Shown one piece after another: positions 1-41,472 of a stretch of 52,518 bases of DNA (the stretch's first letter is position 1; every line of letters starts with the position of its first letter). This stretch comes from Candidatus Pacearchaeota archaeon. Its GTDB lineage: Archaea > Nanobdellota > Nanobdellia > Pacearchaeales > GW2011-AR1. Position numbers and translations under genes: made by a program. The DNA lies in assembly GCA_018303885.1 (NCBI GenBank), contig JAGVXG010000008.1, positions 1-52,518 on the forward strand. The letters run 5' to 3'. The notes beneath the pieces are model-generated. The model searched no databases. It was given only the letters and a program-made list of their open reading frames with translations, and was not told the origin of the DNA.

Positions 1-2280
1 AGCATGTGATCCAAACCAATCAGCATATTCTGTGAAATCACTATCGCTTGATCTTGTTGCAGAGGCATTGTAATAGTCAGATGAAAGCAGTATTCCGCTT
101 ACTCCGACTCCATTTGTACTTGAACCCATACTTGCAGCATTGTCTTCAAGATCCACAACTATTACATGATATTCGTTTTTATTGTCTTTATTTTCCCAGA
201 CAATAAGCGCAGGTTGGTCAATATTTCCAGTTCCTGCTGGATTAACCATGTATAGTGTTGTTACGTTAACACCTGCTACGCCTCCACTTCCGTAATTAGA
301 ACCATTTGTTGCATTGTTTGTGAAGTTGTATCTAACTGCACCAACTGTAATAACCGAATAGTTCAACGTGTGAATTGCGTTGGCTGCACCTGTTGTGTTC
401 AATATCGTACTTCCAACTGTCCAATTACCATCTGTTGCATTGCTTCCTACATTATATGTGAAAGTTGTAGCTGTGTAGCCATCTCCATCAGGGAGCAGTA
501 AGTCATTAGTAGCACTCATGTGGTCGCCAAATACAGAGTTGTTTGTTCCATTCACATCAGACAAGTTTATTGACGTTGGCTGATAGAACTGAACTAAAGC
601 TCCTGATTTGGTTTCTATTGTTGGGAATACCACAAATTTATTTGTAGCAGATGAGTCGCTTGTTGGATACTTCAGTTTAACACTAGCACTTTCTCCTGTT
701 CCATTAAAGTAAACAGTATATCTCTTACCGTCAACATCTAATGTTCCTTCAGCTTCTGTACTTGTGAAAGTCGTTTCATATATTGCTCCATCAAATACAT
801 CTCTGAATTTGACTCTGTCATTTGTTGTAGCGCTTGAGCCACTTGTCTGGTTGTAAACATCGTACAACTCCAAAAGATGTCCATAGTCTTCATTTCCAAC
901 TACAACATATTTTGTAGTTCCGCTTGCATAAGAAAGATTTTCCATTTCTCTTATAGCAATGCTGAAGTTTGAGTCATCAGCAAGTCTCCACATCAAACTT
1001 TCATTGTGTGCAAAGTCAACGCTTTTTTCATTTCCGCCTTGTTCTGTGAATTTCACGCTTACAGTATCATCTCCAGCTGTTGTAACAGAAATCATGTCTC
1101 TGCTTGCATCATCTAAAGGTGAAGTTAAGCCAGCAAAGTCAATTTTGAAGCTTCCGAATACAGGATCCACAAAGGATGTTCCTGGAAGGATAGCGTCATG
1201 TGTTGAATCAGGCCTGAAAACAGCTATTGCAATCTCAGTTGTTGAGTTAGCAGGATCACCACCACCAGTATTACCTCCATTGAGATATACTAATGTTCCG
1301 TCAATAGGATCATTGCTTTCTCCTACTGTAACTGTTGCGGCATCTTCTAAAGTAATCTTTTCAGAACCAGCAATAACAGTTGCAGATAACTTCAAGTTTG
1401 TTTCATCTGCAGTTTGAACTGCAATTGTAACGCCATTAATCTTCTTAGATGCAGCTTCGTTAACTTCTTTACTCTCACTAGCGCCGGCACTATTTGTTAC
1501 TTTTACTGTAGCAGCAGTGTCAGAAGCAGATACAAGTTCAATTGTATATTGGCTTCCGCCAACTGTAACTGTTGAAGCAGGTGTATCACTTGATAAACTA
1601 ACCTTTTCAGCTTGTTTTAACAAAACTAAAGTGTCAGTGTCTGTTGCCGAAGCAACTGTGAATGTTTGCCCAAAAAGAACAATTTCCTCACCTTCTGAAT
1701 CTGCATTCGTGAAGTTGATTGCAGCCATTGTCGCACTTGCGTTATATAATGGCTGTGCCGCAGCGCTTGTACCCATGCTTATACCAATAACAGGGTCATC
1801 ACTACTCGATGGCTGTTTTACAAAAATAACTTTTCCAGAGTTCTCTCCACCAGCAGCTGTTCCCGCTATAAGCTTTATTGTTGATGTAACTTTGGAATCA
1901 ACATTCCCAGAGAAAGTATAGTCTCCAAGAATAGTTGGAAGATCACTCTTTGTTATAGTTGACTTTACAGCATTCAAAGATGTATTAAGCCAGATTCTGT
2001 CAGCGCTTGTATCTAATGATACTACTTCACCGCTTGTTGAAGCTGTTGTACCTCCAGTTGTTCCACCCATGAAGGATTGAAGGCTGGATTGTATGTTTCC
2101 TGCCTGAACAACGTCAAGTGCAGAAACACCTGTACCTGTACCATAGACAACTGCTACATCTGCTGTTCCTCCAACAACGAAAGGTGCTGGATAGTTTGCA
2201 GCAGCAGCAATACCTGCAGTCATGCCAATCATCAATGCACTACTAGCTAAAGCCGATATTTTCCTAAAATTAAATCTCAT
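1..2280 (-). CDS. S-layer protein (partial, C-terminus off window)
   Basis: This open frame is absent from the ORF track because it has no stop inside the window: 760 codons run from ATG at 2280 leftward off the edge. The N-terminus reads MRFNFRKISALASSALMIGM, a secretory signal, followed by ANYPAPFVVGGTADVAVVYG, which resembles the start of methanogen and DPANN S-layer proteins. The rest is rich in Thr, Ser, Gly, Val and NxS/T sequons, with almost no Cys, as expected of a glycosylated surface-lattice protein. A GGAGGT ribosome-binding site lies 16 nt before the ATG. It probably forms the cell coat to which the neighbouring surface proteins relate. The family call rests on the signal and YPAPFV region plus composition. 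Confidence 0.85.
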   Translation of the reverse strand, partial: MRFNFRKISALASSALMIGMTAGIAAAANYPAPFVVGGTADVAVVYGTGTGVSALDVVQAGNIQSSLQSFMGGTTGGTTASTSGEVVSLDTSADRIWLNTSLNAVKSTITKSDLPTILGDYTFSGNVDSKVTSTIKLIAGTAAGGENSGKVIFVKQPSSSDDPVIGISMGTSAAAQPLYNASATMAAINFTNADSEGEEIVLFGQTFTVASATDTDTLVLLKQAEKVSLSSDTPASTVTVGGSQYTIELVSASDTAATVKVTNSAGASESKEVNEAASKKINGVTIAVQTADETNLKLSATVIAGSEKITLEDAATVTVGESNDPIDGTLVYLNGGNTGGGDPANSTTEIAIAVFRPDSTHDAILPGTSFVDPVFGSFKIDFAGLTSPLDDASRDMISVTTAGDDTVSVKFTEQGGNEKSVDFAHNESLMWRLADDSNFSIAIREMENLSYASGTTKYVVVGNEDYGHLLELYDVYNQTSGSSATTNDRVKFRDVFDGAIYETTFTSTEAEGTLDVDGKRYTVYFNGTGESASVKLKYPTSDSSATNKFVVFPTIETKSGALVQFYQPTSINLSDVNGTNNSVFGDHMSATNDLLLPDGDGYTATTFTYNVGSNATDGNWTVGSTILNTTGAANAIHTLNYSVITVGAVRYNFTNNATNGSNYGSGGVAGVNVTTLYMVNPAGTGNIDQPALIVWENKDNKNEYHVIVVDLEDNAASMGSSTNGVGVSGILLSSDYYNASATRSSDSDFTEYADWFGSHA

Positions 2281-3377: not shown

Positions 3378-3875
3378 CTAGTAATAAGCCGTAAATGTAA
3401 CATTAGCTCCAGGCAAGTCCTGAAGCGCCCCTTTATAGTTCGATGTTAAATTGCCTTGCTTTACATATAGAATTTCTTTAGTGTTTGAAGCTATTTTAAG
3501 TTCATAGCCTTTTACGGGCTGATTTTGCCCGGTTTTCCAGCTTTGCGCCAAAATCCCTGCCAAAGTTTCGTTAAGGAGGTCACAGCTATTTATCTCTTCT
3601 AAATCCCGTTCAGGAGCTGCCTCAAAACAGGCTTTCTCACTGTCACAAAGGAAAATAAGCTCTTGAACAGAGAAAACTCTTTTTTCAGGACCGCATTCAG
3701 CAGTGTATTGCAACGTGGCTTGTATAAAACTATCGGCTTCGTAGCTTTCCACATTCTCTTTTCCCGACTTCTTCAGAGAAAAACTCAGCAAAAAAAGGAT
3801 GACAATAGCCACGATTATGATAATTAAGGCAAATCCAACCATTTCTTCCTGTCCTCGCTTGTTTGTTTTTGTCAT
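3378..3875 (-). CDS. pilin-like protein with class III signal
   Basis: The 165-aa product starts MTKTNKRGQEEMVGFALIII: a short basic leader, an RGQ/E processing-type site and a ~20-residue hydrophobic helix, the arrangement of archaeal type IV pilin and flagellin precursors processed by a FlaK/PibD-type peptidase. After the helix comes a 120-aa domain with four Cys (CGPEKR, CDSEKAC, SCDLL), which could form disulfides outside the cell. It heads the leftward surface cluster. Its leader carries the 32-nt hairpin shared with the gene at 4718. The pilin-like architecture is seen directly; assembly into a pilus is inference. Confidence 0.7.
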   Translation of the reverse strand: MTKTNKRGQEEMVGFALIIIIVAIVILFLLSFSLKKSGKENVESYEADSFIQATLQYTAECGPEKRVFSVQELIFLCDSEKACFEAAPERDLEEINSCDLLNETLAGILAQSWKTGQNQPVKGYELKIASNTKEILYVKQGNLTSNYKGALQDLPGANVTFTAYY

Positions 3876-3888
3876 GTTTTAACTCACT

Positions 3889-3920
3889 CGCTCTCGAACG
3901 ACCACGCTTGGGCGTTCGTT
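3889..3920 (-). repeat. 32-nt leader hairpin, copy 1
   Basis: CGCTCTCGAACGACCACGCT continues to GGGCGTTCGTT, identical over 32 nt to the copy at 5703-5734. CGAACG/CGTTCG arms enclose a CCA/TGG inner stem. It lies 13 nt upstream of the ATG at 3875, within the likely mRNA leader. Confidence 0.7.
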
Positions 3921-4036
3921 TTCGTTATTTATTTTACTTTTAATGTGAAAACCCATAAGGTTCAATTTACATAAACTTGATTTTACTTCTATTAACAACT
4001 TACTTTCTTTCCTTCTATAACCAAAATTATCATTTA

Positions 4037-4615
4037 TCATTTTATCTTCTTATATGTAACTATAATCTTTGCTATTTCACACACGTCAGCAATATAAGGA
4101 TATGCTGCCACAAAATTTCCCTCTTCATCATAAACTTCGTCACTTTTGGCTTGTTTTCTGCATAAAGCCACGAAGTTTGGAACTCCTGTTCCACCTTGTG
4201 GTTTCAAAATTTCTATTTTATTGCAATCTGGATAATTTTCCACAGTGCATAACTTACTTCCGCCTGTTGAAGGATAAATCTTTACTATTTCTATTCCAGA
4301 AACCCCCCAAAAATCAGCATCAGAGTACTTTTTTATGTTTTTCTTTAAAGCCATGACCTTGTCGAAATCTATACAATTTACCTTTGTAGTGCCGAAAGCC
4401 TCTCCACATGAAAACTCTGGCGAGTTTGCAAGTTTTGAAACCAAAAGTATCGCATTCCTTTCTTCGAGAACAGCCGCAGACTCTTTTAAGCCAGAAAACA
4501 AAACATTGGCTATAAACAACCCAACCAAGGCGAAAAACAAAGTCACAGCTATAAGCATGAAAGCCATCTGCTGAATCTTCATTTGTCCGCGTTTTCCTTT
4601 ATTTTGTTTTTTCAT
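4037..4615 (-). CDS. pilin-like protein with class III signal
   Basis: The 192-aa protein begins MKKQNKGKRGQMKIQQMAFM and continues into a ~25-residue hydrophobic helix, again basic leader + RGQ + helix. The extracellular part has paired Cys (FSCGEAFGTTKVNC, LCTVENYPDC, LCRKQ, VCEI) and no recognisable enzyme motif. It sits between two other pilin-like genes in the same direction. The class III signal is convincing; the function of the globular part is unknown. Confidence 0.7.
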   Translation of the reverse strand: MKKQNKGKRGQMKIQQMAFMLIAVTLFFALVGLFIANVLFSGLKESAAVLEERNAILLVSKLANSPEFSCGEAFGTTKVNCIDFDKVMALKKNIKKYSDADFWGVSGIEIVKIYPSTGGSKLCTVENYPDCNKIEILKPQGGTGVPNFVALCRKQAKSDEVYDEEGNFVAAYPYIADVCEIAKIIVTYKKIK

Positions 4616-4717
4616 TCTAATTTGCTCAATTCTCTTAAATTTAAAATGATAAGCTTCAATTCAACTTATTTTTAACTTTTTTACTTTAATTAACATTTTT
4701 ATTTTTCCTATTATTAA

Positions 4718-5677
4718 TCACCATAACTTAACCGTGAACCTGTCAAAGCACATTATATAATTTTTAACACCTATTTCTTCAGATACCTGAACTACAGATG
4801 CTAAGTCTCTAGAATCTCTTAGGGAATTTGCCGAGTTAGCCAAAAGCAAGAGATTTACGCTTGGAATACATCCTTGTTTCATTAGGAGTTGTTGTTTTTC
4901 ATCGTACAGTTTCGAAAGTTCGCTTGTTCTTTTCATAAGTCTTTTTACTTGGCACTCATATATGCTCTTGTCTGAAAAAACAGCAGCATACATTAGGGAA
5001 TCAGCCTCATAATAAACAATCTGCCCGCGTTTCTCCACAGACTTCTGAAATTCATCAACATTTATATCACAATTGTCGTCGCTAGACCCAAAACAAACCT
5101 TTATGCTGTTTTCAGGACATGCACCATCTTCAACAAGAATATTTTCCTGATTCAAATCAGAAAGTTCTTCTTTTATTTCTCGCGGAGGCTGAAAGAAACA
5201 ATACTTTTTCTCTTTTGACATAAGATAAATCAAATCAGAAACCTTAAAGGGAAATTCAAAAGGCTTCGCAAAAATAATGAAATCTTTTCCTTGTTCAACA
5301 CCTTCAGAAAAAATATATTTGTTTGAAAACTCTGTTTGCAGGTCTGTTTCTGTCCATTTTTCGAAGCTTTTCTGGGATATTTTTATTATCTGGCTTCCAA
5401 AATTTTCAGAAGTGCTGCACTCGTTGTAGATTCTTGTTTCTACAGGCATGGTAAGCAGCGTGACAACACTTGTTTCAAATCCCGTTTCTAAAGGGCTTAA
5501 TAAAACAGAAATTTCCTTTCCTGTTTTCGCCGTTGTTGCTTCTCCACCTGTCTTGATAACTTTTGTAGAAATGTAAATTGCAAGAAACAAGATAACTGCT
5601 CCAACGATGATTGCAAAAATCCATGCAAAAGAAATCTGTAATTGCCCTTTTTTGTTTTTGCCTCTTTTTTTTATCAT
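4718..5677 (-). CDS. large pilin-like protein
   Basis: I prefer ATG at 5677 (319 aa) to the track start at 5719, because it gives MIKKRGKNKKGQLQISFAWI, a basic leader, KGQ site and hydrophobic helix, and because the upstream sequence then forms a leader like that of the gene at 3378, with an AAAGGAG motif. The ectodomain (about residues 50-319) contains an internal TMPVETRIYNECS segment, several Cys and a region rich in aromatic residues; no known enzyme motif is visible. A family of such larger KGQ proteins seems common in DPANN genomes, to my knowledge without an assigned role. Confidence 0.65.
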   Translation of the reverse strand: MIKKRGKNKKGQLQISFAWIFAIIVGAVILFLAIYISTKVIKTGGEATTAKTGKEISVLLSPLETGFETSVVTLLTMPVETRIYNECSTSENFGSQIIKISQKSFEKWTETDLQTEFSNKYIFSEGVEQGKDFIIFAKPFEFPFKVSDLIYLMSKEKKYCFFQPPREIKEELSDLNQENILVEDGACPENSIKVCFGSSDDNCDINVDEFQKSVEKRGQIVYYEADSLMYAAVFSDKSIYECQVKRLMKRTSELSKLYDEKQQLLMKQGCIPSVNLLLLANSANSLRDSRDLASVVQVSEEIGVKNYIMCFDRFTVKLW

Positions 5678-5702
5678 GTTTAGCTCACCCACTCCTTTCA
5701 GT

Positions 5703-5734
5703 CGCTCTCGAACGACCACGCTTGGGCGTTCGTT
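5703..5734 (-). repeat. 32-nt leader hairpin, copy 2
   Basis: Identical to 3889-3920. On the transcript it folds as CGAACG-C-CCA-AGCG-TGG-T-CGTTCG. It lies 25 nt upstream of the preferred ATG at 5677. Confidence 0.7.
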
Positions 5735-5935
5735 CCCATAATTGGTTTTATTGTTAATGTAAAAGCCAAACTGATATTATAAATTTTCATATGATATTAT
5801 TAATTATCACGTTTAATTTTATATGAACCCACTTCGATTTTATTTTAAGTTTTTAATGTAAACAACTTAAGTTATTTAATTAACACTTATTCTATAGTAA
5901 TATTATTTACAATTTATTTTTATTTAATACCTTTG

Positions 5936-6445
5936 TTAACCACCAATTCTTGTAATCCTAACCAACCTATCACTGAAATCTTTTACCAGCCTTAACTTTA
6001 CTTTCCCATTAACGTTTGATATGCAAAAAGGATTTTCATTTTCAGTAATTGATGCTAAGTCTATATACTTTATTTCTGCCGATTCAGTTCCTTCAAAATC
6101 TAATGGATAAAAAACAATGTTTTCTTTTCCATAATAAGCTCTTTTTAGCTCATTGTAAATTCCGTTTTTTGCACCTCTTGCCGAAGAACTAAAGTCAACA
6201 AAGCAGGCAAATGACTTTTTTCCAGGTAAGGAGTATTCTTCATTTTCCGAGGATTGTTCGCTTTTCCATACTTTCTCTACGTCTGATTGAAAGTCATTCA
6301 AGAATTTGGCTGTTTTTGCAGAATCCTGGACACCAAGAAAAGCCCTTATTCCAAAAAAAGCAAATGCAAGAAAAAACACTATAAGAATTATGGAAAAAAT
6401 CATCCCAAATGAAAGTTGCATTTGTGCATTCTTTTTTGTTTTCAT
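5936..6445 (-). CDS. pilin-like protein with class III signal
   Basis: The 169-aa product starts MKTKKNAQMQLSFGMIFSII followed by a long hydrophobic helix. The leader is Lys-rich and the processing-type site is NAQ rather than RGQ. Two Cys (FACF, FCIS) lie in the ectodomain. A gap of about 260 nt separates it from the gene at 4718, so it may have its own promoter. It closes the first run of four pilin-like genes before the TrmB-type regulator. Confidence 0.65.
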   Translation of the reverse strand: MKTKKNAQMQLSFGMIFSIILIVFFLAFAFFGIRAFLGVQDSAKTAKFLNDFQSDVEKVWKSEQSSENEEYSLPGKKSFACFVDFSSSARGAKNGIYNELKRAYYGKENIVFYPLDFEGTESAEIKYIDLASITENENPFCISNVNGKVKLRLVKDFSDRLVRITRIGG

Positions 6446-6480
6446 GTTATAATATTATGTAATTTGATATTTAAAATATG

Positions 6481-7227
6481 TTATTTCTTAGCGATTCTCC
6501 AAAAAGCATCAAAGTAAGATTTAAAACCCTTGGCTATTTCTTCATTTTCTACTAAAAATCCGACTGGTTCTTCTGATAAGAAAAAAATAAAAGATTTATT
6601 TTTATAAAAAACGATAGTCATATTAGAAACTAAATATTCTGGCAAAAATTTTATTTCTGATTTTAATGAGGTTGTTTTAACCAATTTACTTTTTATATCA
6701 TAGTTTGCCAACATTTTTACTTTTATTTTCTTTTTTGCCCTTTGTTTATGATAATTTTCAAAGAACTCTTTAACTCCCGGTTTATTTTCTCCGTAAGTAG
6801 CACCTATAACATAATAAGTACTTCTTGGCGATAGTTCATCTAAAATATTAAGATAGAAGTTCTTTATTGCCTTAAATCCCAAGTATAATATGGCTTCCGT
6901 TTGTTGTTTTCTGGCCCTTTGTTTTAGTTCTGGGAGTATTTTTTGAATTATCTCTTTTTGCTGGTTAAAATGTTTAGTTTTTTCCTCTAAATAATTAATA
7001 ATTCTTTTTGGCTCCATAGCACTAAAATAGGCTACTTTCCCCCTTATTAAGGAGCCTACTAATCCTTTTTTAGTTAGTTTATCAAGAATAATATATAATT
7101 TAGATCTGGAAACCTGAGACTCCTTGGTTATAGCTCCTGTAGAACTTTGGCCTATTTTTAAAAGAGCCAAGTATACCTTAGCTTCGCCAGGCGTTAGTCC
7201 AATCTCTTCCAGTATCTTAGTGTCCAT
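6481..7227 (-). CDS. TrmB-family transcriptional regulator
   Basis: In this 248-aa protein, residues 1-75 form the TrmB winged helix (EEIGLTPGEAKVYLALLKIG, then a second helix ending SRSKLYIILDKL and a wing KGLV). A coiled-coil linker follows at about 80-115. The C-terminal domain (IGATYGENKPGVKEFFENYH) resembles the TrmB effector domain but is short, with no obvious sugar-binding signature. In Thermococcales relatives control sugar transport; here the neighbours are surface genes, so it may control the pilin-like cluster and the divergent gene at 7323. Confidence 0.8.
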   Translation of the reverse strand: MDTKILEEIGLTPGEAKVYLALLKIGQSSTGAITKESQVSRSKLYIILDKLTKKGLVGSLIRGKVAYFSAMEPKRIINYLEEKTKHFNQQKEIIQKILPELKQRARKQQTEAILYLGFKAIKNFYLNILDELSPRSTYYVIGATYGENKPGVKEFFENYHKQRAKKKIKVKMLANYDIKSKLVKTTSLKSEIKFLPEYLVSNMTIVFYKNKSFIFFLSEEPVGFLVENEEIAKGFKSYFDAFWRIAKK

Positions 7228-7270
7228 ATCTTAAATTTAATTTCCAAATATAAAAATCTTTCTATTTTTA

Positions 7271-7284
7271 TCCCCCTAAGGGGA
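7271..7284. promoter_or_regulatory. inverted repeat, candidate operator
   Basis: TCCCC-CTAA-GGGGA lies between the divergent TrmB-type gene and the gene at 7323, just upstream of the latter's TATATAAAAA box (7291-7300) and upstream of a TTTTTATATTT box for the TrmB gene (about 7247). The position fits a regulator binding both promoters. A similar CCCC/GGGG hairpin occurs at 29078-29090. Confidence 0.4.
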
Positions 7285-7322
7285 ACACAATATATAAAAA
7301 GATAATTTTATGCCGTTTAATT

Positions 7323-7736
7323 ATGGAAACTAGAATAGGAAAAATTAATAAGAATTTGAAAGATATTTTGAGAGAAAGCGATGAACTAGCTGGAAGATTT
7401 AGCCCAAAATTAAGAAAAAAAATCGCAGATGTGAATGATATTAACAATAAATATTCTAAATGGGCCCTGATTATTGGGGGCTTAGTAGGAACATCAATTG
7501 GTTATTCTACTGGATTTTTAAGGGATTCTGGAGCACCAGAAATAGTGAATTATATTTCTTATTTTATTGGAGGATCTATGCTTTCAGCTCTTCCTGGTTT
7601 ATTTATTGGGGATAAAATAAAAGAAAGAGCATATCTTAGACTGCAAGATGAATATCCAGAGAAAGCTCAAGATATAGAGAGATTCCAAGATTTAGCTAGA
7701 GACTTTAATGCTCTCAGATCCATGTTAACTCCATAA
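7323..7736 (+). CDS. small two-TM membrane protein
   Basis: This 137-aa protein has about 45 N-terminal soluble, charged residues, two hydrophobic segments (about 47-66 and 76-97, Gly-rich), then a charged tail. I recognise no family. A TATATAAAAA box at 7291-7300 predicts a nearly leaderless transcript. Its divergence from the TrmB regulator and tight linkage to the gene at 7765 suggest a small two-gene unit. Confidence 0.55.
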   Translation: METRIGKINKNLKDILRESDELAGRFSPKLRKKIADVNDINNKYSKWALIIGGLVGTSIGYSTGFLRDSGAPEIVNYISYFIGGSMLSALPGLFIGDKIKERAYLRLQDEYPEKAQDIERFQDLARDFNALRSMLTP

Positions 7737-7764
7737 TAACTTACGTAAATAGTAAAAAATCAAA

Positions 7765-8265
7765 ATGAAATATAAAATAAAACAACAGAAAAGAAAAGAT
7801 AAAAAGAAAAACGCGCTAAGAAAAATAGCGGATGCTGGATTAAGTGCTTTAGCTATTTTGAGTTTAAGCGGGGCTGGACTGGGATTTTTATATCTGAGTG
7901 GGATTATAGGTAAAGAAGAATATATGCGAAGATGTTATTATAGTAGCTATAGTGGGGTCCCAACTAAAACAATTCAAATAGCACGAGTAAGGTTTCCCTT
8001 CAGTCTTTATGTTACAAACTACAGAGATTTTTGGGAAGACGGTAGCTTAGACATTTATGAAAGAGGTTCTTTAGATATGGGTGAAAACGTTCTTGGAGAA
8101 AGATTAACAATAGTATCAGACACCATACCTCTTATTAGGTATGCTAAAGAAGGAAGAACATTATTAAGAATTTCTCAAGAAGCAAAAGAATTACAAACAA
8201 GATTTGACAATTCCTTAAAATTAAAATCTTATTTCTACCATCAAACGAAGTGTAAAGCGATTTAA
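7765..8265 (+). CDS. membrane-anchored hypothetical protein
   Basis: The 166-aa product has a very basic 25-residue N-terminus, a single hydrophobic helix at about 27-47, and a Tyr/Arg-rich outside domain with YMRRCYYSSYSG near its start. No family is recognised. It starts 28 nt after the previous gene and ends 2 nt before the convergent large surface gene. Confidence 0.5.
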   Translation: MKYKIKQQKRKDKKKNALRKIADAGLSALAILSLSGAGLGFLYLSGIIGKEEYMRRCYYSSYSGVPTKTIQIARVRFPFSLYVTNYRDFWEDGSLDIYERGSLDMGENVLGERLTIVSDTIPLIRYAKEGRTLLRISQEAKELQTRFDNSLKLKSYFYHQTKCKAI

Positions 8266-8267
8266 AA

Positions 8268-10394
8268 TCAATCACTCCTAACTTCAAACGGCTTCGCAAT
8301 AATATTACATGCGTTAGGGAAAGGCTGGTTTCCAAACTCGTCAGAGCATTTTATGTAAAAAATCTTGTTTGTGTTCCATGCAGTTGAATGCTCTGTTCCA
8401 TTAACAGCCTTAGTCATGTTTGTGCCATCCTTAAACAAGTAATCACAGCCAAAGTTTCCATATACGCATTGTGCTTTTTCATTCGTAATCACCTTCAGAC
8501 TGTTTTCTTGTCTGAAGACACGAACAACTGTAGGTGCGATTGTGTCTGTTTCTACTTTGAAACTAATTGTTTTTGTGTCTACATTTCCTCCAAGGTCTAT
8601 GCATTGAATATCATAAATGTAGTCTCCTGCTGTAAGGAATAAATCCTGAGAATGTTCGTGTGTTCCTGTATTGAAAAATTCATTGAAGTTTCCACCTGTT
8701 CCAGGTCCTTCATAAGAGCACAATGCCTTTCCTTCATCATATCCTGCAGAGGTCTTTACTTCAAGCTTTACTTTTATCACATCTGTCGAATCTTTTATCG
8801 TCGTTGAGTTTGGTTTTGCAGAATCTATTACCAAAGGCTCTGTCCCCTTCAATGTGAATTTGTATGACTGTTTGTTTGTATTTCTTTTATTTTCTTCAGG
8901 AGTTCCTTTCAAATGTGGCTGATCTTTGCATCTGAAATAAAATTCGTTATCTGCTCTATCTATCAAGCCAGTTAAAGTCGTTGCACATTGATAAAGCATC
9001 TGTGCATTGAATTCAAGTGCTCCTGTTTTGCATGTCATTTGGTTTTCCATATCATCGTAGGCTCTATCAAGTCTGTCCCACTTACATTCACTTGGTTCAT
9101 TTACATAAACCTGGAGATTTACAGAAGTTTGTCCAAATGGTATTGGAGAATTGTTTAAAATACTTGTTGTTACTATTTCTGGCTGTCTTTTATCTGGCCC
9201 ATTATCAACACAGAATTTAAAGATCGTAAAGGCTGATGGAGAGTCTCCTTTTGGATTTCCGTTTTCATCTTGACATCTGAAATAAATTGAGAATCGTCCC
9301 CCATTTGCAAGGGTTATGCCTTCCGCCTCAAGAGCATCAGGACTTTGGATATTTGTTTGGAATGAATGGTTATACCTTGTTCTACCTTCACTTAAGAAAT
9401 GTTCCATTGTATCAAAATTATTTTTATTTGAGAAATCAACTTTACATTTTCCCGCTTTATTAAGAGTGACACCAAACCTTAAAGCAATGAAGGGGGCCAC
9501 GCATCCATTATCGTTTGTTTCAGGCACAATTTTCCATCCCCTGTTTGGAGGAGAAGTTGTACTATCTGGAATATATTTGTAACCTGTTGTAAGGATTTGC
9601 TGCCATGGTTGCATTATAGGAGGTGTTACGTCGTCTCTGTTTTTCCAGATACAAAGTTCTTCTGTTGTCCCCTTATTAACAAGTTCACATGCCTGCCCAA
9701 GACTTTCACATTGATATTCTGTGCATGGCAAACCCCCTTTATTACACCTGTCACAATACTGTCCGCCCAAAGGCGCGTCCCAAGGATAACATGTAAAAGA
9801 ATAAAGATCATATTTTACATCTTTGGCAAAAACCGCAAAAATTACCACAGCAACTATAAGACCAATAACTGGAGCGCTAATCCCCAAAATTGCATTTATT
9901 CCTAGGTCTTTTAATGTCATTGAGGCAAAAACACCGATAGAAACCCCAGCTGAAATTGCTTTTTCAATTGATGGATCTAAAAAATCAACTTGGCTAAAGA
10001 ACCCTCTAAGGCCAGCGTAAATACCTGCAGCTGTAAAAGCATTGCCACCCACTTGCCCAATATTTTTACCTACTGATTCTCCAATTGCTCCACCCCTCCT
10101 ACCACCAGGCTCGGCTACCCCCCTAGCTCCTCCTCCACCAAGTCTGGTTACCTCACCAGTTACTTGTATCGATGTTGTTTCAGTCTGCTCCGCTCTCTCT
10201 AAACCAGACAAATCGCTGCCAGACTCTGATGGCGCTAACGCTTTTATAGTGGATTTTGTAGTGGGAATAGGCACTGGAGATAAAGCATTTACAACACGAA
10301 ACTCGCTTCCAACAAAATAAGAAAAGGCAATAATACTTACTAATAGAATAATTATCTGGCTTATTACAACACTTTTTTTTATTTTATTTTTCAT
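8268..10394 (-). CDS. large Cys-rich membrane/surface protein
   Basis: The 708-aa protein has an N-terminal hydrophobic segment (IIILLVSIIAFSYFVGS), a Gly-rich linker, two or three more hydrophobic helices around residues 115-190, and a long ectodomain. The ectodomain begins with a Cys-dense stretch (YCDRCNKGGLPCTEYQCESL) and continues with repeated beta-rich units ending in FRCQD, FRCKDQ or IKCSDEFGN, like Ig-type or bacterial surface repeats. It lies 9 nt from the next Cys-rich gene, so the two are probably co-transcribed. It may be a large pilus-associated or adhesin-type subunit. The architecture is direct; the role is unknown. Confidence 0.65.
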   Translation of the reverse strand: MKNKIKKSVVISQIIILLVSIIAFSYFVGSEFRVVNALSPVPIPTTKSTIKALAPSESGSDLSGLERAEQTETTSIQVTGEVTRLGGGGARGVAEPGGRRGGAIGESVGKNIGQVGGNAFTAAGIYAGLRGFFSQVDFLDPSIEKAISAGVSIGVFASMTLKDLGINAILGISAPVIGLIVAVVIFAVFAKDVKYDLYSFTCYPWDAPLGGQYCDRCNKGGLPCTEYQCESLGQACELVNKGTTEELCIWKNRDDVTPPIMQPWQQILTTGYKYIPDSTTSPPNRGWKIVPETNDNGCVAPFIALRFGVTLNKAGKCKVDFSNKNNFDTMEHFLSEGRTRYNHSFQTNIQSPDALEAEGITLANGGRFSIYFRCQDENGNPKGDSPSAFTIFKFCVDNGPDKRQPEIVTTSILNNSPIPFGQTSVNLQVYVNEPSECKWDRLDRAYDDMENQMTCKTGALEFNAQMLYQCATTLTGLIDRADNEFYFRCKDQPHLKGTPEENKRNTNKQSYKFTLKGTEPLVIDSAKPNSTTIKDSTDVIKVKLEVKTSAGYDEGKALCSYEGPGTGGNFNEFFNTGTHEHSQDLFLTAGDYIYDIQCIDLGGNVDTKTISFKVETDTIAPTVVRVFRQENSLKVITNEKAQCVYGNFGCDYLFKDGTNMTKAVNGTEHSTAWNTNKIFYIKCSDEFGNQPFPNACNIIAKPFEVRSD

Positions 10395-10403
10395 TTCAAC
10401 TTA

Positions 10404-12128
10404 TTAAGACTCCTCAGGTTCATAGTTTTTAGTTCTTACAACAGGGTTTTCGCTGTGATAGCCTTTAATTTCTATGTAATTGCTTTTGTTTCCACAATCT
10501 CCGAGAGCAACGCACATGTTATTTCTATCATTCGCCCATTTATTACGTGAGAATTCTAATATGAATTTGTTCGGAGGATCGCCCTTTCTTAATCCAGCAC
10601 ATTCACAATTTTCTTTGCAGTCCCAATCCAAACCACCGAGCAAACTTTTTTCAAATTTCACTAAGCAATTATCACTTGCAAGCAGGCATATATCTGTTGC
10701 CTTACTTTCAGGAGCCCAAAAATCAAATCCGGGAGGATAAAGAGGTACACATGCAGCACCCTTTTTCTCATCGTCGTCACCAGAAACCTCTGCTTTTGGC
10801 ACAAGTTGCCCTTCACTATTGACTACAAAGGGTTTTCCTTCGTCGTCACGAAATCCTGATAATGATAAAGTTTGCCCTTCTAACCATTTACAGTCTCTTT
10901 TATCGCGATTTTCACAGTCTTTTTTATTATCCATAGAAGTACATTCTTGCCATTCATTTGCCCTGCATCTTGCTGAACTAAATCCAGGAACAACTTCATC
11001 TTCAATACAGAGTGTTCCCCTAAAAGGATCACATAACTCTGTGGTAACTTCCCCATTATAGCAAACAAATTTTCCATGCTGGCTTCCAGGCAAGTTTTGA
11101 CTTATTCCTGTAGAGGTAGCACACCATGTTTCTCCGTGCTCATATTTTTTGCCCTGATATTCACAACTTAAATCCGCACAGACAAAACTTCCGTATTGTG
11201 GTTGTGGTGTTGCCTTGTTGCCACGCTCAAAAGGCTTGCAAGTACTACCGGGTACAGCTGTATAATCACAGCTTCCACATGTAGTAGAGCCAGCATTGCC
11301 TTCATCTGGGTTGCAGCTTTCATCCCTTTCTTTTATATTGGTCCAGTATTCCTGATTGTTTATTTTTGATGCATCGTAAATATTTGCAAGATTCCCGCAC
11401 GTGTCTAAGAAATAAACCTCAAATTTATTTTCAACACATGTTGTTTTCTGTGATCTTCCGCAATTTGTAGCAAGAGATTCTGCAGAACACAAAAGCCCCT
11501 CATGAAATTCTATTGTTGTATCCTCAGAACTTCCAGAATTTGATTCAAGTTTTTGGCATTCTGATTGCGTTAAAAGTTTGCATTTTCTTTCGATGCCATC
11601 ATCAATAACACAAGCACCCTTTACGTCAGGATTTGCACTTGCAAGACAGGCTTCATTGCTTTTTATATCTGACCTGAAATTTGATGGAATTCCATAATCA
11701 GAAGAAAGAGTTTTACATTCGTTTTGTGTTACAAACGCTCCTTGGTCTCCAAGCAAACAACAACCCAATTGGCATTGAATAATCTCATCTGGTTTTCCGG
11801 GAAGCCAGACTCCGTTGCTTTCTTGACAAACTACTTGAGGAACGTTAGGACGGCATTCTCCTGCTCTGTTATTAACACATGTTCCAAGCTTGCAAAATGC
11901 AGTGGCTTCACATGAAGTTGAAGCTTGGCGATAACGCTGGCCAGTGATAGGGTTTATAGCTGTGTTAACCTGATTTGCAGGAACATTCTGACACCATGCA
12001 CCGCTCAATGTTTTTTCAGCGCAGACAAAAGTTTCTCCGACAGCAGATACTTGATTAATTGATAAAAATACTAAAATTGTTAATATAAATACTCCGAGTA
12101 TCAACATAGACCAACTTTTTTTTACCAT
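10404..12128 (-). CDS. Cys-rich secreted protein
   Basis: I prefer ATG at 12128 (574 aa) over the track start at 12158: it gives MVKKSWSMLILGVFILTILV, a clean signal or anchor, and an AAGGAGCGAG site lies upstream. The mature part contains dozens of Cys in short spacings (CQLGCCLLGDQGAFVTQNEC, CGSCDYT, CKENCECAGL), indicating a disulfide-knotted extracellular protein. The motif GCCLLGDQG-x-C recurs with variations, suggesting tandem small modules. No catalytic motif is seen. It is transcribed between a pilin-like gene and the 708-aa surface protein. Confidence 0.65.
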   Translation of the reverse strand: MVKKSWSMLILGVFILTILVFLSINQVSAVGETFVCAEKTLSGAWCQNVPANQVNTAINPITGQRYRQASTSCEATAFCKLGTCVNNRAGECRPNVPQVVCQESNGVWLPGKPDEIIQCQLGCCLLGDQGAFVTQNECKTLSSDYGIPSNFRSDIKSNEACLASANPDVKGACVIDDGIERKCKLLTQSECQKLESNSGSSEDTTIEFHEGLLCSAESLATNCGRSQKTTCVENKFEVYFLDTCGNLANIYDASKINNQEYWTNIKERDESCNPDEGNAGSTTCGSCDYTAVPGSTCKPFERGNKATPQPQYGSFVCADLSCEYQGKKYEHGETWCATSTGISQNLPGSQHGKFVCYNGEVTTELCDPFRGTLCIEDEVVPGFSSARCRANEWQECTSMDNKKDCENRDKRDCKWLEGQTLSLSGFRDDEGKPFVVNSEGQLVPKAEVSGDDDEKKGAACVPLYPPGFDFWAPESKATDICLLASDNCLVKFEKSLLGGLDWDCKENCECAGLRKGDPPNKFILEFSRNKWANDRNNMCVALGDCGNKSNYIEIKGYHSENPVVRTKNYEPEES

Positions 12129-12277
12129 ATTAATAACTCGCTCCTTCCAGTCGTTCATAATTTACGCTTTTGTTAATGTAAAAACCCACAGAATTGAAAT
12201 TTATAACCATACTATTTTCTTTTAACTTATTAAAACTCTTTTTCTCTTTTTTATCATCAAAATATATTTTCATCATT

Positions 12278-13078
12278 TTAATTCGTTGCAACTTCATCAA
12301 TTCCATAGCCAGGAGGCCATGCAACGCTTCTTGATGCAAACTGGAATTTATTTCCCGTGTTTCTGTCTGTTAAGATATAAATTGTTGAGCCATCTACCTG
12401 ATTGAGCTTTTCAACTTTTAAATCCGGATAATAACTCATGTAAAGTGTTGTTTCTGCATCTCCGAATTCTGATTCCCAATCAATTATGCTATTTGCTATG
12501 CTTACCAATTCATAAAGACCATTGTTCAAAACAACATTGAAAGAATCATACCTTTCTGTATCTGTTTTCGTCGTAGTTAAAGTATAATTAAATCTTGCCA
12601 CAACTCTTTTTGGAAGCAATTCAACTCTTACATTTCCAGGCCGCAAGTTCACAGTATATCCTCTTGATTCATAACTGTTTTTCAGCTCGTTAAAACAATT
12701 GACTACAGCAGGTTTTATTTCGTTTTCAATTTCTGATTCAATATGTTCTTTTAGCAATGGCCGTTGAACGCTGCAAGTTTTGTAATATTCTGTCGTGTAG
12801 CAAAGATATTCTATTTTATCATCTTGGTAAAGAATGAAATTTTCCGGATTCACACTGCCGCCTTGTGATGAAATAAGATTGACAGTATCCTCTAAATCAT
12901 TTTCAATACATATCTGTATGAACTCATTAGGGCTTTTTTCATCGAACCCTGTCGTGACTGTTGTTCCCGGCCTCAAAAAATAAATCAACACAACAAGCGC
13001 CACAATCAAAATAGCAGCAATAATGAAAACAGTTACTTGTCCGCCTTTATTTACTATAAAAGAATCACCTCTTTTCAT
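12278..13078 (-). CDS. pilin-like surface protein
   Basis: The 266-aa protein starts MKRGDSFIVNKGGQVTVFII and continues into a ~22-residue helix ending YFLRPG, so it has a KGGQ-type class III signal. The ectodomain starts FIQICIENDLEDTVNLISSQ, with Cys in CYTTEYYKTC and NCFNEL, and ends PPGYGIDEVATN. Relatives with this GGQ plus CIE pattern occur widely in DPANN genomes, to my recollection as hypothetical proteins. A TTTATAAA box precedes the start by about 20 nt. Confidence 0.65.
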   Translation of the reverse strand: MKRGDSFIVNKGGQVTVFIIAAILIVALVVLIYFLRPGTTVTTGFDEKSPNEFIQICIENDLEDTVNLISSQGGSVNPENFILYQDDKIEYLCYTTEYYKTCSVQRPLLKEHIESEIENEIKPAVVNCFNELKNSYESRGYTVNLRPGNVRVELLPKRVVARFNYTLTTTKTDTERYDSFNVVLNNGLYELVSIANSIIDWESEFGDAETTLYMSYYPDLKVEKLNQVDGSTIYILTDRNTGNKFQFASRSVAWPPGYGIDEVATN

Positions 13079-16266: not shown

Positions 16267-18165
16267 ATGAAAAAAGAGGTGTTGTTTTTATTTCTCTTCA
16301 TGGTTTTGGTCTTTGCAATCCTTAGTTCAGTTAATGCCGCATTGAACACAACCCAAGAAAAGCAAAAAATTGATTTGGCTTATACTTGTCTAAAGGACAA
16401 AGTTAACACTTCGACACTATGTTCGTCACTTACAACAGAAGAAAAAATATTTACGCTTCTTGCGGTTAATCAATGTAAAACAGAACTTATTTCTGATTCT
16501 TCCAACAGCGAGGAATGCTGGCCAACAGGAAACTGCAGATTAAAAACAACTGCGCAGGCAGTTCTTGCCTTGGACGATGCTGGCGCAAACACAGAAAAAG
16601 CACAGTCCTGGCTTCTTAATCAATCAAGAGGAACAACAGATTTAACATGGTTTTTGGAAATCGAAAGCGCGCAACCTACGACATGCACAATATCTTATTC
16701 TTCACAATCATTTAATGTAAACATCGGCGCCGACAAAAAAATAACAAGTAACGCAGGAAGTTGTTTAACTCTTGCAGAAAATGATTATTGGCTTAGAATA
16801 GCTCCTTCGTGTTTTGACGAGGAATTTGAAATTTCCTGCAACGAAAGATTTCTTACAACTTTGTTATTCAAAAAGCCTTCGTCGTCAACAATCCATGTTT
16901 CACCAGAATCTTCGTCTGCAGCAGCCAGCGGCACAACATCAGAAAAAGTAGATTCTTCCTGTTTCATACAAAACAACGTATGCAACTACGAAGGAACTCT
17001 TTGGGCGTCACTTGTTTTGGATTCCTTGGGCAAAGACGTTTCTTCTTATCTGCCTTACCTGCTCACAGTTGCAGAAGATAACAAAGTGTTTATTCCAGAC
17101 GCATTCCTTTATACCATAACTTCAAATTTAGACCACAGAACCTCTCTTCTTTCAAAACAAAAAAGCAAGAAATACTGGTCTGAATCAGGAGACAAATTTT
17201 ACGATACAGCATTAGCACTTTTCCCATTCCAGCAGGAAACATTACAGGAAAAAACAAACTCTAAAGAATGGCTGCTTTCTGTTCAAAACCCAAATGGTTG
17301 CTGGGAAAATAACGTAAGAAACACAGCATTTGTTTTATCTTCTATTTGGCCAAGAAGTTTTTCAGGCGGAGGCGGTGGTGGAGGAGACGGAGACGACGAG
17401 GGCGACGGAGAAAATGACACAGGAACAGAAATCTTTAGTTGTGGAGAAGCAGGTTTCTCTTGCACTACTTTTTCAGCCTGTGATGAAAACTTTGGCGACG
17501 TTCTTTCAGAATATGATTGCCCAGCGCCAAAAGTATGCTGTACTGTTGAACCAGCACAACCAACATGTGCTGAGCAAGGCGGAAATGCCTGTTCTTCTAA
17601 TAAAGTATGCATAGACGGGATTCCTCTAAGCGCTTCTGATGTCGTCGGGCAGAATTGTTGTACCAGTGGTGGCACTTGTGAAGCTCAAGAAACAGGAGGA
17701 GAAACTCTTTCTGATTGTGAGGCAAATAAGGGTATTTGCAGGTCTTATGGCTGTGATTCAGGAGAAGAAAGTGCTTCATATAGTTGCGAATTTACGGGCA
17801 ACACTTGTTGCGTATCAAAACTTTCAACGACAGACGACAAAGGAAGCCTTCTTTGGATATGGATCTTACTAATCTTAATCGTTTTAGTGGTAGTAGGAAT
17901 AATCTTCAGAAACAATTTAAGAATGCTTTGGCTTAGAATGTCTAAAGGACGTGGCTCAAAATCATCACCGCCATCATCGCCATTTTCAATGTCAAGACCG
18001 CCAGGTTATCCCCCATTTAGATCAACACAAAGTGCTCCAATGCATCGTGCTTATGAGGCCTATGGAGAGAAGAATTATGCTTCCGCCTTCACAATCATCT
18101 CAAGCGCGAGCACCACAAAGACCAGCACCAAAACCAAAATCAACAGCGCAGAAAGAACTCGATGA
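16267..18165 (+). CDS. Cys-rich surface protein with TM anchor (apparent C-terminal frameshift)
   Basis: The frame gives 632 aa: a signal peptide (VLFLFLFMVLVFAILSSVNA), an alpha-helical repeat-like region (residues ~20-360, with WLLNQSRGTTDLTWFLEIES and EWLLSVQNPNGCWENNVRNT, recalling prenyltransferase/alpha-toroid repeats), a Gly/Asp linker, three Cys knots ending in CC pairs, and a TM helix (LLWIWILLILIVLVVVGIIF). After about residue 595 the sequence turns to low-complexity Ser/Thr, while the +1 frame reads PSQSSQARAPQRPAPKPKST and then a Lys/Glu helix ELDEVLKKLKEMAK stopping at 18199. The real C-terminus is therefore probably in the other frame. Confidence 0.65.
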   Translation: MKKEVLFLFLFMVLVFAILSSVNAALNTTQEKQKIDLAYTCLKDKVNTSTLCSSLTTEEKIFTLLAVNQCKTELISDSSNSEECWPTGNCRLKTTAQAVLALDDAGANTEKAQSWLLNQSRGTTDLTWFLEIESAQPTTCTISYSSQSFNVNIGADKKITSNAGSCLTLAENDYWLRIAPSCFDEEFEISCNERFLTTLLFKKPSSSTIHVSPESSSAAASGTTSEKVDSSCFIQNNVCNYEGTLWASLVLDSLGKDVSSYLPYLLTVAEDNKVFIPDAFLYTITSNLDHRTSLLSKQKSKKYWSESGDKFYDTALALFPFQQETLQEKTNSKEWLLSVQNPNGCWENNVRNTAFVLSSIWPRSFSGGGGGGGDGDDEGDGENDTGTEIFSCGEAGFSCTTFSACDENFGDVLSEYDCPAPKVCCTVEPAQPTCAEQGGNACSSNKVCIDGIPLSASDVVGQNCCTSGGTCEAQETGGETLSDCEANKGICRSYGCDSGEESASYSCEFTGNTCCVSKLSTTDDKGSLLWIWILLILIVLVVVGIIFRNNLRMLWLRMSKGRGSKSSPPSSPFSMSRPPGYPPFRSTQSAPMHRAYEAYGEKNYASAFTIISSASTTKTSTKTKINSAERTR

Positions 18166-19635: not shown

Positions 19636-21045
19636 ATGTATAATCCAAAAATAGGAATTGGTAATAAATATTTTAATAATAGCCGAGATAATTTAACTAT
19701 TAACAACAAAAACTCCGCTATATTATCTTTAAAATTATTTTTACTATTAGCAATCTTTTTTGTTTCTTTGTCTCTCATTTCAGCCGCAGAAATAAACTTT
19801 ATAAGAGCAGAAAATTCCTCTGGTTTCAGCCAAGGCGAAGCTTTGATAGCAAAGCTTTCTGGAAATTTTATTGACAAGCCAACAAGCAATAATGTCTTTT
19901 TTTATCGCGGGCATGTGCGAATTCCTATGGTTTACGAAATTTCAGAGATGAATGATGATTTTTACATTTATGCATTACTCATTGGAAAAAGCCAAGGAAA
20001 TTACTCTTTAGCTTTAGAAAATGTAAGATACATGACTGGAGCACAGGAAAGTGAAGAAGATATCGTAAAAAACTTCACAATCAATGAAAATATTTCTGAT
20101 TTCTCTATAGAACCTGGATTTGTAATTAATGACACTGATTTTTCGATTGAAGTTCAGAATTTGCAAAATAATCAAATTACAATAAATATCGATACCAGTG
20201 ACAACCTTTTAGTTCAAGATTCTGTAAATGTCAATTCAGGCGAGATAAAAGAAATAAGCTTTCAGCTAAAAAATCAAGAGAAATCGTTTTCAGAACAAAT
20301 AAAACTGAGCTCTGAAAAAACATCTTACACAATCCCTATTTTTATAACTTCAAATTTAACTAGTGGAGAAGAAATAAATAATTCTGGAACAACTAATGGC
20401 GGAACAAACAATTCTGGAACAACTAACGGGGAAACAACCCCTGGATCAGAACCAGGCACTAGCTTCAAATTCGAGCCAGGTATTGTTAGAGTTTCAATGG
20501 CTACAGACTCAAAATCCAAGAGAATTATTTACATTATGAATACCGGAGAAACAGAAATAAAAGATATGGTTTTTTTCGTCCCATTAACGCTAAGCCCTTA
20601 TGTCACCATAACTTCTTCTAAGAACATCAAAGTAAATTCTTCAGAGAAGGTTGAAATAACAATAGAGTCAGACACAGAAGAAAAGCTTGTCGAGGGAGAG
20701 ATAAGTGCAGAATCAGAGAATTTCACGTCTGATTTCAAACTCATTCTAAATTTTACCAAAGATTACACGCCACCAGAAGACGAACAAGGCAAAGAGGTGG
20801 TGATTGTGACAACATGTGTTCAGTTGAAAGGAACAGTTTGCACTGAAAACTATAAATGCAGCGGAGAAACTGCAGACACAAAAGATGGCGTTTGCTGTAT
20901 TCAACCAGCAACGTGTCAAGAAGTTAAAAAAAGCTCAACAGGAAAAATAATAGGATGGTTATTAGTGGTCTTTGTGGTTTTGCTTTTATTCTGGTTCTTT
21001 AAAAGATATAAAAAAGTAAAACCCCAAATTAAATTCCCTAAGTAG
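19636..21045 (+). CDS. single-pass surface protein with Ig-like domains
   Basis: The 469-aa protein has a signal at residues ~30-50 (LFLLLAIFFVSLSLISA) preceded by an unusually long polar N-terminus, so the true start may lie inside. The ectodomain is beta-rich, with NNSGTTNGGTNNSGTTNGET as a linker between two Ig-like parts. A C-terminal Cys knot (CVQLKGTVCTENYKCSGE, then DGVCCIQPATC) is followed by a TM helix and a basic tail. The knot resembles those of the protein at 16267, which suggests a shared module. Confidence 0.65.
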   Translation: MYNPKIGIGNKYFNNSRDNLTINNKNSAILSLKLFLLLAIFFVSLSLISAAEINFIRAENSSGFSQGEALIAKLSGNFIDKPTSNNVFFYRGHVRIPMVYEISEMNDDFYIYALLIGKSQGNYSLALENVRYMTGAQESEEDIVKNFTINENISDFSIEPGFVINDTDFSIEVQNLQNNQITINIDTSDNLLVQDSVNVNSGEIKEISFQLKNQEKSFSEQIKLSSEKTSYTIPIFITSNLTSGEEINNSGTTNGGTNNSGTTNGETTPGSEPGTSFKFEPGIVRVSMATDSKSKRIIYIMNTGETEIKDMVFFVPLTLSPYVTITSSKNIKVNSSEKVEITIESDTEEKLVEGEISAESENFTSDFKLILNFTKDYTPPEDEQGKEVVIVTTCVQLKGTVCTENYKCSGETADTKDGVCCIQPATCQEVKKSSTGKIIGWLLVVFVVLLLFWFFKRYKKVKPQIKFPK

Positions 21046-40170: not shown

Positions 40171-41472
40171 TTACTTCGGCTTAAGTCTTCCCCATTTTTC
40201 AAGAGCTTCTCTCAACTCTTTATTTTTCTTTGCAAATTCCTCAAGAGATATTTTTTTCTTTGTCGCTTCTAACGCCTGCATTGTTGCTTTTGCTCCAGCA
40301 CGCGTACCATGTGGATGTCCATGAATTCCTCCCGAAACCAAAAGAACAATATCTTTTCCATATATGTCCATTTCATCTGGAATTAAGCCTGGGTGAACAC
40401 CCCCAGAAGAAACCGGAAACGCCGGTTTTGTGTTTCCCCAATTTTGTTCAAGTAAAAATCCTTTTTTTGGTGCAACCCGCGCCTCTCTTAAAGTATCGGC
40501 AATCGCGGTTACTTCTTCTCTTGAACCAACGAGTTTTCCTACTGCTGTTCCAGAATGAATTTGATCAACCCCAATCATTCTCATAGTCTTGGCCAAAAAT
40601 TGCATTGAAATTCCATGGCGCGGATTCCTATCGAAAGAAGCATGCATTGCCCTATGTGCATGAATCGCCATTCCATAATCTCCCAATGTTTTTCTTAGGG
40701 TTTGCGTGGCTGCGGTTCCGCAAACAACCACATCAATCATAGCATATTTCCATCCATGTTCATGTAAAAACTTTGCGCGTTTTTCCATTTCTTTTGTTTC
40801 TGCGGTAATATTCAGCAAAGCATCCTTAACTTCTCCTGTTTCTTTTTCTGCTCTGTCTCTGAGTTTTGTCATAAGGGAAACACGTTTGTAAAAATTATTG
40901 AAACTCTGGCTTGTTAAATTTTCATCGTCTTTAACAAGGTCAAAACCACCGAGCCATGTTTCATAGCCAATTTTTGCATGCTCTTCTGCAGAAAATCCGA
41001 CTTTTGGTTTTGGAACAGCTCCTGTTAAAGGTCTATCATAAACTTTAAAGTATTTTCTTAATCCTTGAATACCAAGATTAGGTCCCTGAAAGCCCTTTAG
41101 ATACTCTTTTGGCAAAGAAACATCAACAAGTCTCAAATTTTTCAAAGCTTTCATTCCGAAAATGTTTCCCGCAATTCCGCTGAGAAGCTGTGGCATGTTT
41201 CCAGCTTCCCAAAGTCCAAGAGGATAAGCCACATAAACAAAGTTCCCTTCAATTTTGTATGCCGTCGCCATCAGACCTTTCATTCTCGATGGCAATGTGA
41301 AGAGTGTTGTCCACGTGCCTGTTGAACTTTCAGAAGCAATTCTTCCTATCGCCTCTTTAACAGACATTCCTTTTTCTGGCTCAAAATAAAACAAAACCTT
41401 TAAGTCTGTTTTCTTAGGCTTGTAACTTAAATCAACAAATTCATCATACCACTCTACTTTTTTTTCTGGCAT
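40171..41472 (-). CDS. rbcL: ribulose-bisphosphate carboxylase, form III large chain
   Basis: The 433-aa protein has the active-site sequence GGFDLVKDDENLTSQSFNNF with the carbamylated Lys and metal ligands, PLTGAVPKPKVGFS, the MHASFDRNPRHG loop, and loop 6 IHSGTAVGKLVG. The C-terminal GGIHGHPHGTRAGAKATMQA is archaeal. Form III enzymes work in AMP/nucleoside recycling, turning RuBP and CO2 into 3-phosphoglycerate; no AMP phosphorylase or R15P isomerase is in this window. It is in a run with cysS. Confidence 0.95.
   Translation of the reverse strand: MPEKKVEWYDEFVDLSYKPKKTDLKVLFYFEPEKGMSVKEAIGRIASESSTGTWTTLFTLPSRMKGLMATAYKIEGNFVYVAYPLGLWEAGNMPQLLSGIAGNIFGMKALKNLRLVDVSLPKEYLKGFQGPNLGIQGLRKYFKVYDRPLTGAVPKPKVGFSAEEHAKIGYETWLGGFDLVKDDENLTSQSFNNFYKRVSLMTKLRDRAEKETGEVKDALLNITAETKEMEKRAKFLHEHGWKYAMIDVVVCGTAATQTLRKTLGDYGMAIHAHRAMHASFDRNPRHGISMQFLAKTMRMIGVDQIHSGTAVGKLVGSREEVTAIADTLREARVAPKKGFLLEQNWGNTKPAFPVSSGGVHPGLIPDEMDIYGKDIVLLVSGGIHGHPHGTRAGAKATMQALEATKKKISLEEFAKKNKELREALEKWGRLKPK

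Follow-up and report, generated by a model that had tools for sequence, protein, structure and literature searches.

The window analysed here is a stretch of 52,518 nucleotides from a Candidatus Pacearchaeota archaeon (GenBank assembly GCA_018303885.1, contig JAGVXG010000008.1; C4:1-52518 in this work), the genome of which comprises 720 kb in 17 contigs and is 85% complete. A cluster near the start of the window encodes five pilin-like proteins (A to E) and two large secreted proteins rich in cysteine (G and F), and probably supplies the minor pilins and the tip of a type IV pilus-like machine that most members of its DPANN phylum share. The original prediction, made from the DNA alone, had suggested a possible new surface structure; instead of standing alone, the cluster is better described as one half of a type IV pilus-like system split over two loci, and it is very likely that the cluster and the motor-locus genes described below form one pilus system. 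A second proposal, that a minor-pilin set here primes a fibre carrying a tip protein, is supported by conserved synteny and by the presence of an assembly ATPase and a prepilin peptidase in the same genome, as well as by lineages whose tetrad D-C-B-A lies beside that ATPase or its pilins. Display of the G/F protein at the tip is judged somewhat more likely than not, and this tip may be used for gripping surfaces or other cells. The suggestion, also made originally, that the structure is a host-attachment organelle is kept here as a hypothesis.

The analysis bears on how DPANN archaea hold other cells and with which proteins. It names a concrete gene set found across the phylum, consisting of one motor, a fixed pilin tetrad, and pairs of a carrier pilin and a giant protein. 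In each genome, some twelve conserved genes of hypothetical status thereby become testable parts.

A conserved operon of pilin-like proteins

Synteny was compared in regions of at most 20 kb from relatives (n = 20), in loci of named genomes (n = 45) and in additional loci belonging to other families within the class, and the order of the tetrad was compared in 60 non-redundant C loci with one profile per gene. Instead of being scattered, as the original prediction had allowed they might be, the homologues keep the order D-C-B-A in 54-58 of the 60 loci. The gene upstream of C is D in 54 of them, with no family gene within reach in the other six, while the gene downstream is B in 58, followed by A in 57. 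Median gaps along D-C-B-A are 4, -7 and -4 nucleotides, and the four genes are therefore usually touching or overlapping. The tetrad is thus a conserved operon of cysteine-containing, pilin-like proteins with class III-type signals.

The five genes with class III signals described originally are present on the minus strand (Table 1). Each of subunits A to E has such a signal, with predicted cleavage, and a conserved N-terminal helix: a short basic leader is followed by G or A and then by a hydrophobic helix, an arrangement kept in dozens of relatives. The conserved N-termini are [KR][GAS]|QEEMVGF in A, [GA]|QxKIQQMAFML in B, [GA]|xLQISFxWLFAIIVGA in C, [GA]|QMxLSFGMIFSIILII in D and [KR][GA]|QVTIFIIIAI in E. 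Conserved cysteines number 4 in A, 6 in B, 8 in C, 2 in D and 4 in E, with 86-100% conservation per position. Together, the cysteines and N-termini argue that A to E are exported, disulfide-bonded proteins under strong constraint. Since gene order, cysteines and N-termini are all conserved in dozens of genomes, chance is excluded as the source of the cluster.

C was found in 200 of 281 genomes of the class and E-family proteins in 216, and, on a reading of the two genome lists, C is accompanied by E in nearly all cases. Across the phylum, 293 of 370 sampled genomes carry C, all those listed belonging to the same class, and the named relatives with C are nearly all labelled Pacearchaeota or Nanoarchaeota. 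Two genomes of one family (f13; G068 and G081) have neither C nor E. A separate record titled 'Patescibacteria group bacterium' (JAHYJW010000002.1) holds the whole archaeal cluster, and its title is probably a mislabel.

Across many families, E and a giant of the G/F type lie beside the tetrad. In Pacearchaeota loci G and F are either split or fused into a protein of about 1140-1400 amino acids, often in two cassettes; in other families the fused form has about 1000-1370 amino acids with 54-71 cysteines, and the order, where all genes are present, is PCNA, E, G/F, D, C, B, A, S-layer-like protein. In family f4, E and G/F lie apart from C, yet both are retained (in the single-contig genome G057, E with G/F is at 37 kb and C at 642 kb). 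The gene for a helix-turn-helix (HTH) protein is next after A in 44 of the 60 C loci; it belongs to this neighbourhood, although the original prediction did not count it there, and a regulatory role for its product is possible. The TrmB regulator that the original prediction counted in the cluster is present but is not part of the system; it and two small open reading frames (ORFs; together 6481-8265) were rejected as components, being absent from the relatives' loci, and are private insertions of this genome between F and D. A TrmB paralogue occurs on contig C5 of the same genome.

The cluster does lie beside an S-layer gene, as first described: the adjacent gene is homologous to one whose product, in a relative, matches S_layer_C at 1.6e-06, and the window copy has no Pfam match of its own. 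A gene of this kind is present in 47 of the 60 C loci, and its constant position in Pacearchaeota would suit a static surface complex, in which five pilin-like, single-span anchors hold G/F in or under the S-layer without polymerisation, in the manner of a bindosome or an S-layer anchor. The absence of glutamate at position 5 from all mature starts of A to E points the same way. However, the tip pilin PilX also lacks this glutamate (PMC7541494), the whole mature N-terminal helix is conserved, and the genes are linked to a secretion ATPase and its candidate platform. A static complex is accordingly held to be improbable.

Table 1. Genes of the cluster and its immediate surroundings (positions in the window).
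Feature	Position	Strand	Remarks
E, pilin-like carrier protein, 266 amino acids (aa)	12278..13078	-	Class III-type N-terminus KGGQVTVFIIAAI, 4 conserved Cys; heads the putative tip module
G, Cys-rich secreted protein, 584 aa, 41 Cys	10404..12158	-	Makes up the N-terminal half of exoprotein G/F; paralogues and other families have it fused to F
F, secreted protein, 708 aa, 21 Cys	8268..10394	-	Signal helix, disordered linker, hydrophobic helices, Cys-rich knob, predicted Ig/FnIII-like domain chain
Small ORFs p137 (137 aa) and q166 (166 aa)	7323-7736, 7765-8265	+	Between F and D; outside the conserved set
TrmB	6481-7227	-	Pfam match 2.5e-13; outside the conserved set
D, pilin-like, 169 aa	5936..6445	-	Heads the D-C-B-A tetrad
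C, largest pilin-like protein	4718..5677	-	319 aa from an internal ATG; 333 aa from GTG at 5719
B, pilin-like, 192 aa, 6 conserved Cys	4037..4615	-	Conserved N-terminus and synteny
A, pilin-like, 165 aa	3378..3875	-	Mature start QEEM; closes the tetrad
Winged-helix HTH protein, HVO_A0114-like, 125 aa	2701..3078	+	Pfam PF25212 1.6e-15; convergent to A
S-layer-like protein gene	1..2280	-	Cut at base 1, the contig edge; conserved neighbour

Linkage to a secretion ATPase at another locus

As originally noted, the window lacks PilB and PilC: no T2SSE or T2SSF match was found on its contig. The search of the rest of the genome that had been proposed located assembly machinery at another locus, namely a 781-amino-acid ATPase (ATP781), a 725-amino-acid multi-span protein (PilC725) and an A24 peptidase. 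ATP781, one of two secretion ATPases in the genome (781 amino acids on contig C5, 514 on contig C9), matches T2SSE at 2.2e-13 and has an intact Walker A motif, GTRSSGKT, as well as LIIGEVR. Its locus also encodes PilC725, with 8 hydrophobic spans, and the pilins p173, p256, p133, p172, p186 and p143, and in 19 of 20 relatives' loci PilC725 is next to or near ATP781. The A24 prepilin peptidase nearby (C5:45415-45753; PF01478, 1.5e-13) is the only copy found. A match of the ATP781 type is present in 275 of the 281 class genomes.

The likeliest motor for the window cluster is ATP781, because eight genomes with C or E (G048, G108, G204, G207, G224, G240, G278 and G303) contain just one T2SSE ATPase, which is of this type (about 770 amino acids). 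For the same reason the PilB and PilC of a second pilus system on C9 (C9:10000-28000) are less likely candidates. That system encodes the 514-amino-acid PilB, a platform divided between two adjacent T2SSF genes (445 and 288 amino acids) and about six pilin-like proteins, one of them with 454 amino acids and cysteine-rich repeats. The C9-type ATPase was not found in G048, a single-contig genome estimated to be 77% complete.

Gene linkage points in the same direction as ATPase content. In a genome of the same family as that of the window (G028), ATP781, PilC725, p173, p256, p133 and p172 lie about 3-13 kb from D-C-B-A on the opposite strand, and in another (G152, locus L141) ATP781, E, a 1993-amino-acid giant, D, C, B and A are consecutive on one strand. 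Among 19 further C loci that were read, most of them from deep lineages, 14 contain p256 homologues, with E-values down to 5e-44 in deep families, where such a homologue is close to D-C-B-A in 13 loci, and 12 contain p143-like genes, of which deep families have up to four copies. Pacearchaeota and several other families keep ATP781, PilC725 and p173/p256/p133/p172/p143 together as a unit; in three deep genomes for which both loci were read (G201, G259 and G101), p256 and p143 are near the tetrad and absent from the ATPase locus. The simplest reading of these arrangements is one system whose parts may be placed in one or two loci.

The G/F exoprotein and its putative carrier pilin

Both large cysteine-rich secreted proteins of the original prediction are present, F with the length first given and G with 584 rather than 574 amino acids. 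Their relation to E was assessed with 88 non-redundant E-family genes, 87 of which have a next gene on the same strand; the loci were chosen through matches to E and C, with no random draw, and the cases without G/F were not selected by their neighbours. The gene after E encodes at least 450 amino acids in 77 of the 87 cases, compared with 19% of the 1743 genes in the same loci, and is G/F in 52. Among the 35 cases without a G/F partner, there are 26 in which a different large protein (up to 3078 amino acids) comes next; these proteins mostly overlap E or begin within about 30 nucleotides of it and have an N-terminal hydrophobic signal. That E almost always precedes a large secreted protein suggests that E-type proteins are carrier pilins for large secreted partners, and an E-type pilin followed by a giant gives a simple rule for finding further tip proteins.

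Additional pairs illustrate the range of these partners. Contig C5 of the same genome carries two more of them (L115:5221-14761), one with an E-type protein of 624 amino acids followed by a giant of 2299 amino acids and 41 cysteines, the other with 272 followed by 809 amino acids. An extreme form of the G/F partner is the secreted protein of 1993 amino acids and 138 cysteines between E and the tetrad in G152 (L141:7630-13611). The idea that G is a hypervariable adhesin was not supported, as G is fairly conserved, with 39-55% identity within the set compared.

Structure prediction, which had been suggested as a check on the ectodomains and the large proteins, was applied to C and F. An AlphaFold2 model of C, from an alignment that took in rows from related loci and from loci of further genomes, is confident (predicted local distance difference test, pLDDT, 91.1; predicted template modelling score, pTM, 0.85) and consists of a 49-residue N-terminal helix (17-65), a beta-rich part and a helical domain (226-304). 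The model of F, built from loci found as relatives of the window genes only, has a pLDDT of 76 and comprises an N-terminal helix, a disordered linker, helices within 106-189 and beta domains from about 260 to 700. Foldseek matched it, down to 8e-13, to immunoglobulin (Ig) and fibronectin type III (FnIII) chains of adhesion molecules and to large bacterial adhesins. Because TM-scores over the whole chain are low, these matches give a domain type and no specific relative. F is thus predicted to be a chain of Ig-like domains. In family searches no pilin-like protein of the cluster, nor G or F, matched a Pfam or NCBIfam family, and profiles of C, E, F and G found no significant match among PDB sequences. 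PilY1 and DUF2341 domains were likewise absent from Pfam and NCBIfam matches of F and G and from Pfam matches of fused G/F, and by the tests made the cluster is outside the PilY1 and GspK families.

Pairing of E-type pilins with very different giant secreted proteins is also what dedicated export would produce. The same genes could accordingly encode a pseudopilus similar to that of type II secretion, a short piston that drives G/F, and likewise the remaining giants paired with E, across the S-layer, with no long fibre and no tip function. The sizes of D, C, B and A (169, 333, 192 and 165 amino acids) are reminiscent of a GspH/K/J/I set. On the other hand, the fold of C matches neither GspK nor any other PDB chain at E<=0.001, and no sequence match was found either. 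The several further small pilins, with p143-like proteins in multiple copies in deep families, fit a fibre of major pilins better. A pseudopilus is therefore regarded as unlikely, though less so than a static complex.

Proposed mechanism and comparison with known systems

Gene content and order, conservation, linkage to the motor, signal-like N-termini and the domain type of F were computed directly, and from them we infer how a type IV pilus-like machine with G/F at its tip might work. The A24 peptidase would cut the leaders, after which D, C, B and A would come together on the platform to form the priming complex, in which the largest subunit, C, would lie near the top. E would hold the separately exported G/F protein, and the ATPase would add the major pilin, for which p143 is a candidate, from below. 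In this way the growing filament would carry G/F on its tip out past the S-layer, where the protein, stiffened by disulfides, could act as an adhesin that binds surfaces or other cells.

Several observations weigh against this proposal. No filament has been seen for this organism. For the ectodomain of C, Foldseek found no PDB match at E<=0.001, solved minor pilins included. An N-terminal signal is present in G and in F alike, and the two might be no more than secreted proteins. The platform candidate PilC725 falls below the Pfam T2SSF model, and the p143 assignments in deep families are weak profile matches (8e-4 to 3e-13). Finally, 6 of the 281 class genomes have no detectable ATPase of the 781 type though most of them carry C or E, perhaps as a result of incomplete assemblies, and some genomes that lack both C and E have this ATPase as well, so that it can serve other pilin sets.

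Instead of holding a host cell, the same machine might take up DNA or provide general adhesion, in keeping with its presence in most of the phylum and with exposed parts that are fairly conserved, not variable. Among the loci that were read, none showed recognisable competence-type genes next to the tetrad, although no systematic search for them was made, and this alternative is considered very improbable.

The closest working analogue of the proposed tip-bearing pilus appears to be the priming complex of PilY1 and minor pilins, with a likeness in outline. Myxococcus xanthus clusters 1-3 each combine four minor pilins with the large secreted tip protein PilY1, one motor serving several tip cassettes (PMC7541494). 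The window cluster shares with them a minor-pilin set with a large secreted protein as putative tip, a single motor, several cassettes and the lack of glutamate at position 5. It differs in that neither its pilins nor G/F have a family match, that G/F is cysteine-rich and Ig-like and has E as its own putative carrier pilin, and that an S-layer takes the place of the outer membrane.

For archaea, type IV pilus systems have also been described in which minor pilins and tip adhesins with DUF2341 were predicted (Makarova 2016, PMC4858521). As in the present case, these have a secretion ATPase, an A24 peptidase and many small cysteine-containing pilins, with S-layer and adhesin-like neighbours and pilin sets that are modular relative to the motor; they also have a TadC-type platform, for which PilC725 is the candidate here. 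However, that census names no Woesearchaeota or Pacearchaeota, the tetrad, the carrier E and the cysteine-rich and Ig-like giants of the window are without a family model, and neither F, G nor a fused G/F gave a DUF2341 match. In DPANN archaea, diverse predicted pilins have been reported beside genes for a secretion ATPase and TadC as generic islands, along with cls.004306 (NEQ255), a DPANN-specific secreted family beside S-layer-like proteins (Makarova 2019, PMC6393860). A tip module, a carrier-pilin rule or a tie between two loci is not described there, and NEQ255 could not be matched to any family of the present cluster. No description of the fixed tetrad, the rule of E and giant, or the tie between the two loci was found in the literature searched, which was mostly outside subscription journals and preprints, and these three features appear to be new.

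Pili have been connected with attachment in other small-celled lineages. Saccharibacteria, which are tiny ectosymbionts, have two type IV pilus systems, one of them for host binding (PMC12206443), and a possible role in attachment has been considered for two such systems in Nanoarchaeota (PMC6142677). In the Nanobdellota strain YN1 and in Nanobdella aerobiophila, the S-layer gives way, where the cell touches its host, to a surface structure that includes a 6-7 nm filament (PMC11420986, PMC11104419), and the proteins of the YN1 attachment organelle are stated to be unknown (PMC11420986). These archaea are closely related to the source of the window by name, and any tie between the proteins of their organelle and the cluster is conjectural. 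A wider and rather doubtful extension of the proposal is that one motor and a fixed four-pilin priming complex serve interchangeable tips, each made of E and its own giant disulfide-rich or Ig-type exoprotein, and that the D-C-B-A/E/G/F module is the host-recognition part or filament tip of the Nanobdellota attachment structures seen by cryo-tomography.

Some further genes were noted in passing. Elsewhere in the window, two genes (16267-18165, 632 amino acids with 30 cysteines; 19636-21045, 469 amino acids) encode secreted proteins with C-terminal hydrophobic spans and no Pfam match, and remain near primase and PCNA in several relatives. A lone pilin-like gene at 43131-43700 (minus strand; 189 amino acids) is matched by the D profile. 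By eye, a 433-amino-acid protein (40171-41472) resembles the RuBisCO large subunit, and a RadA-like recombinase of 828 amino acids at another locus (L009:1977-4463) has an intein-like insertion.

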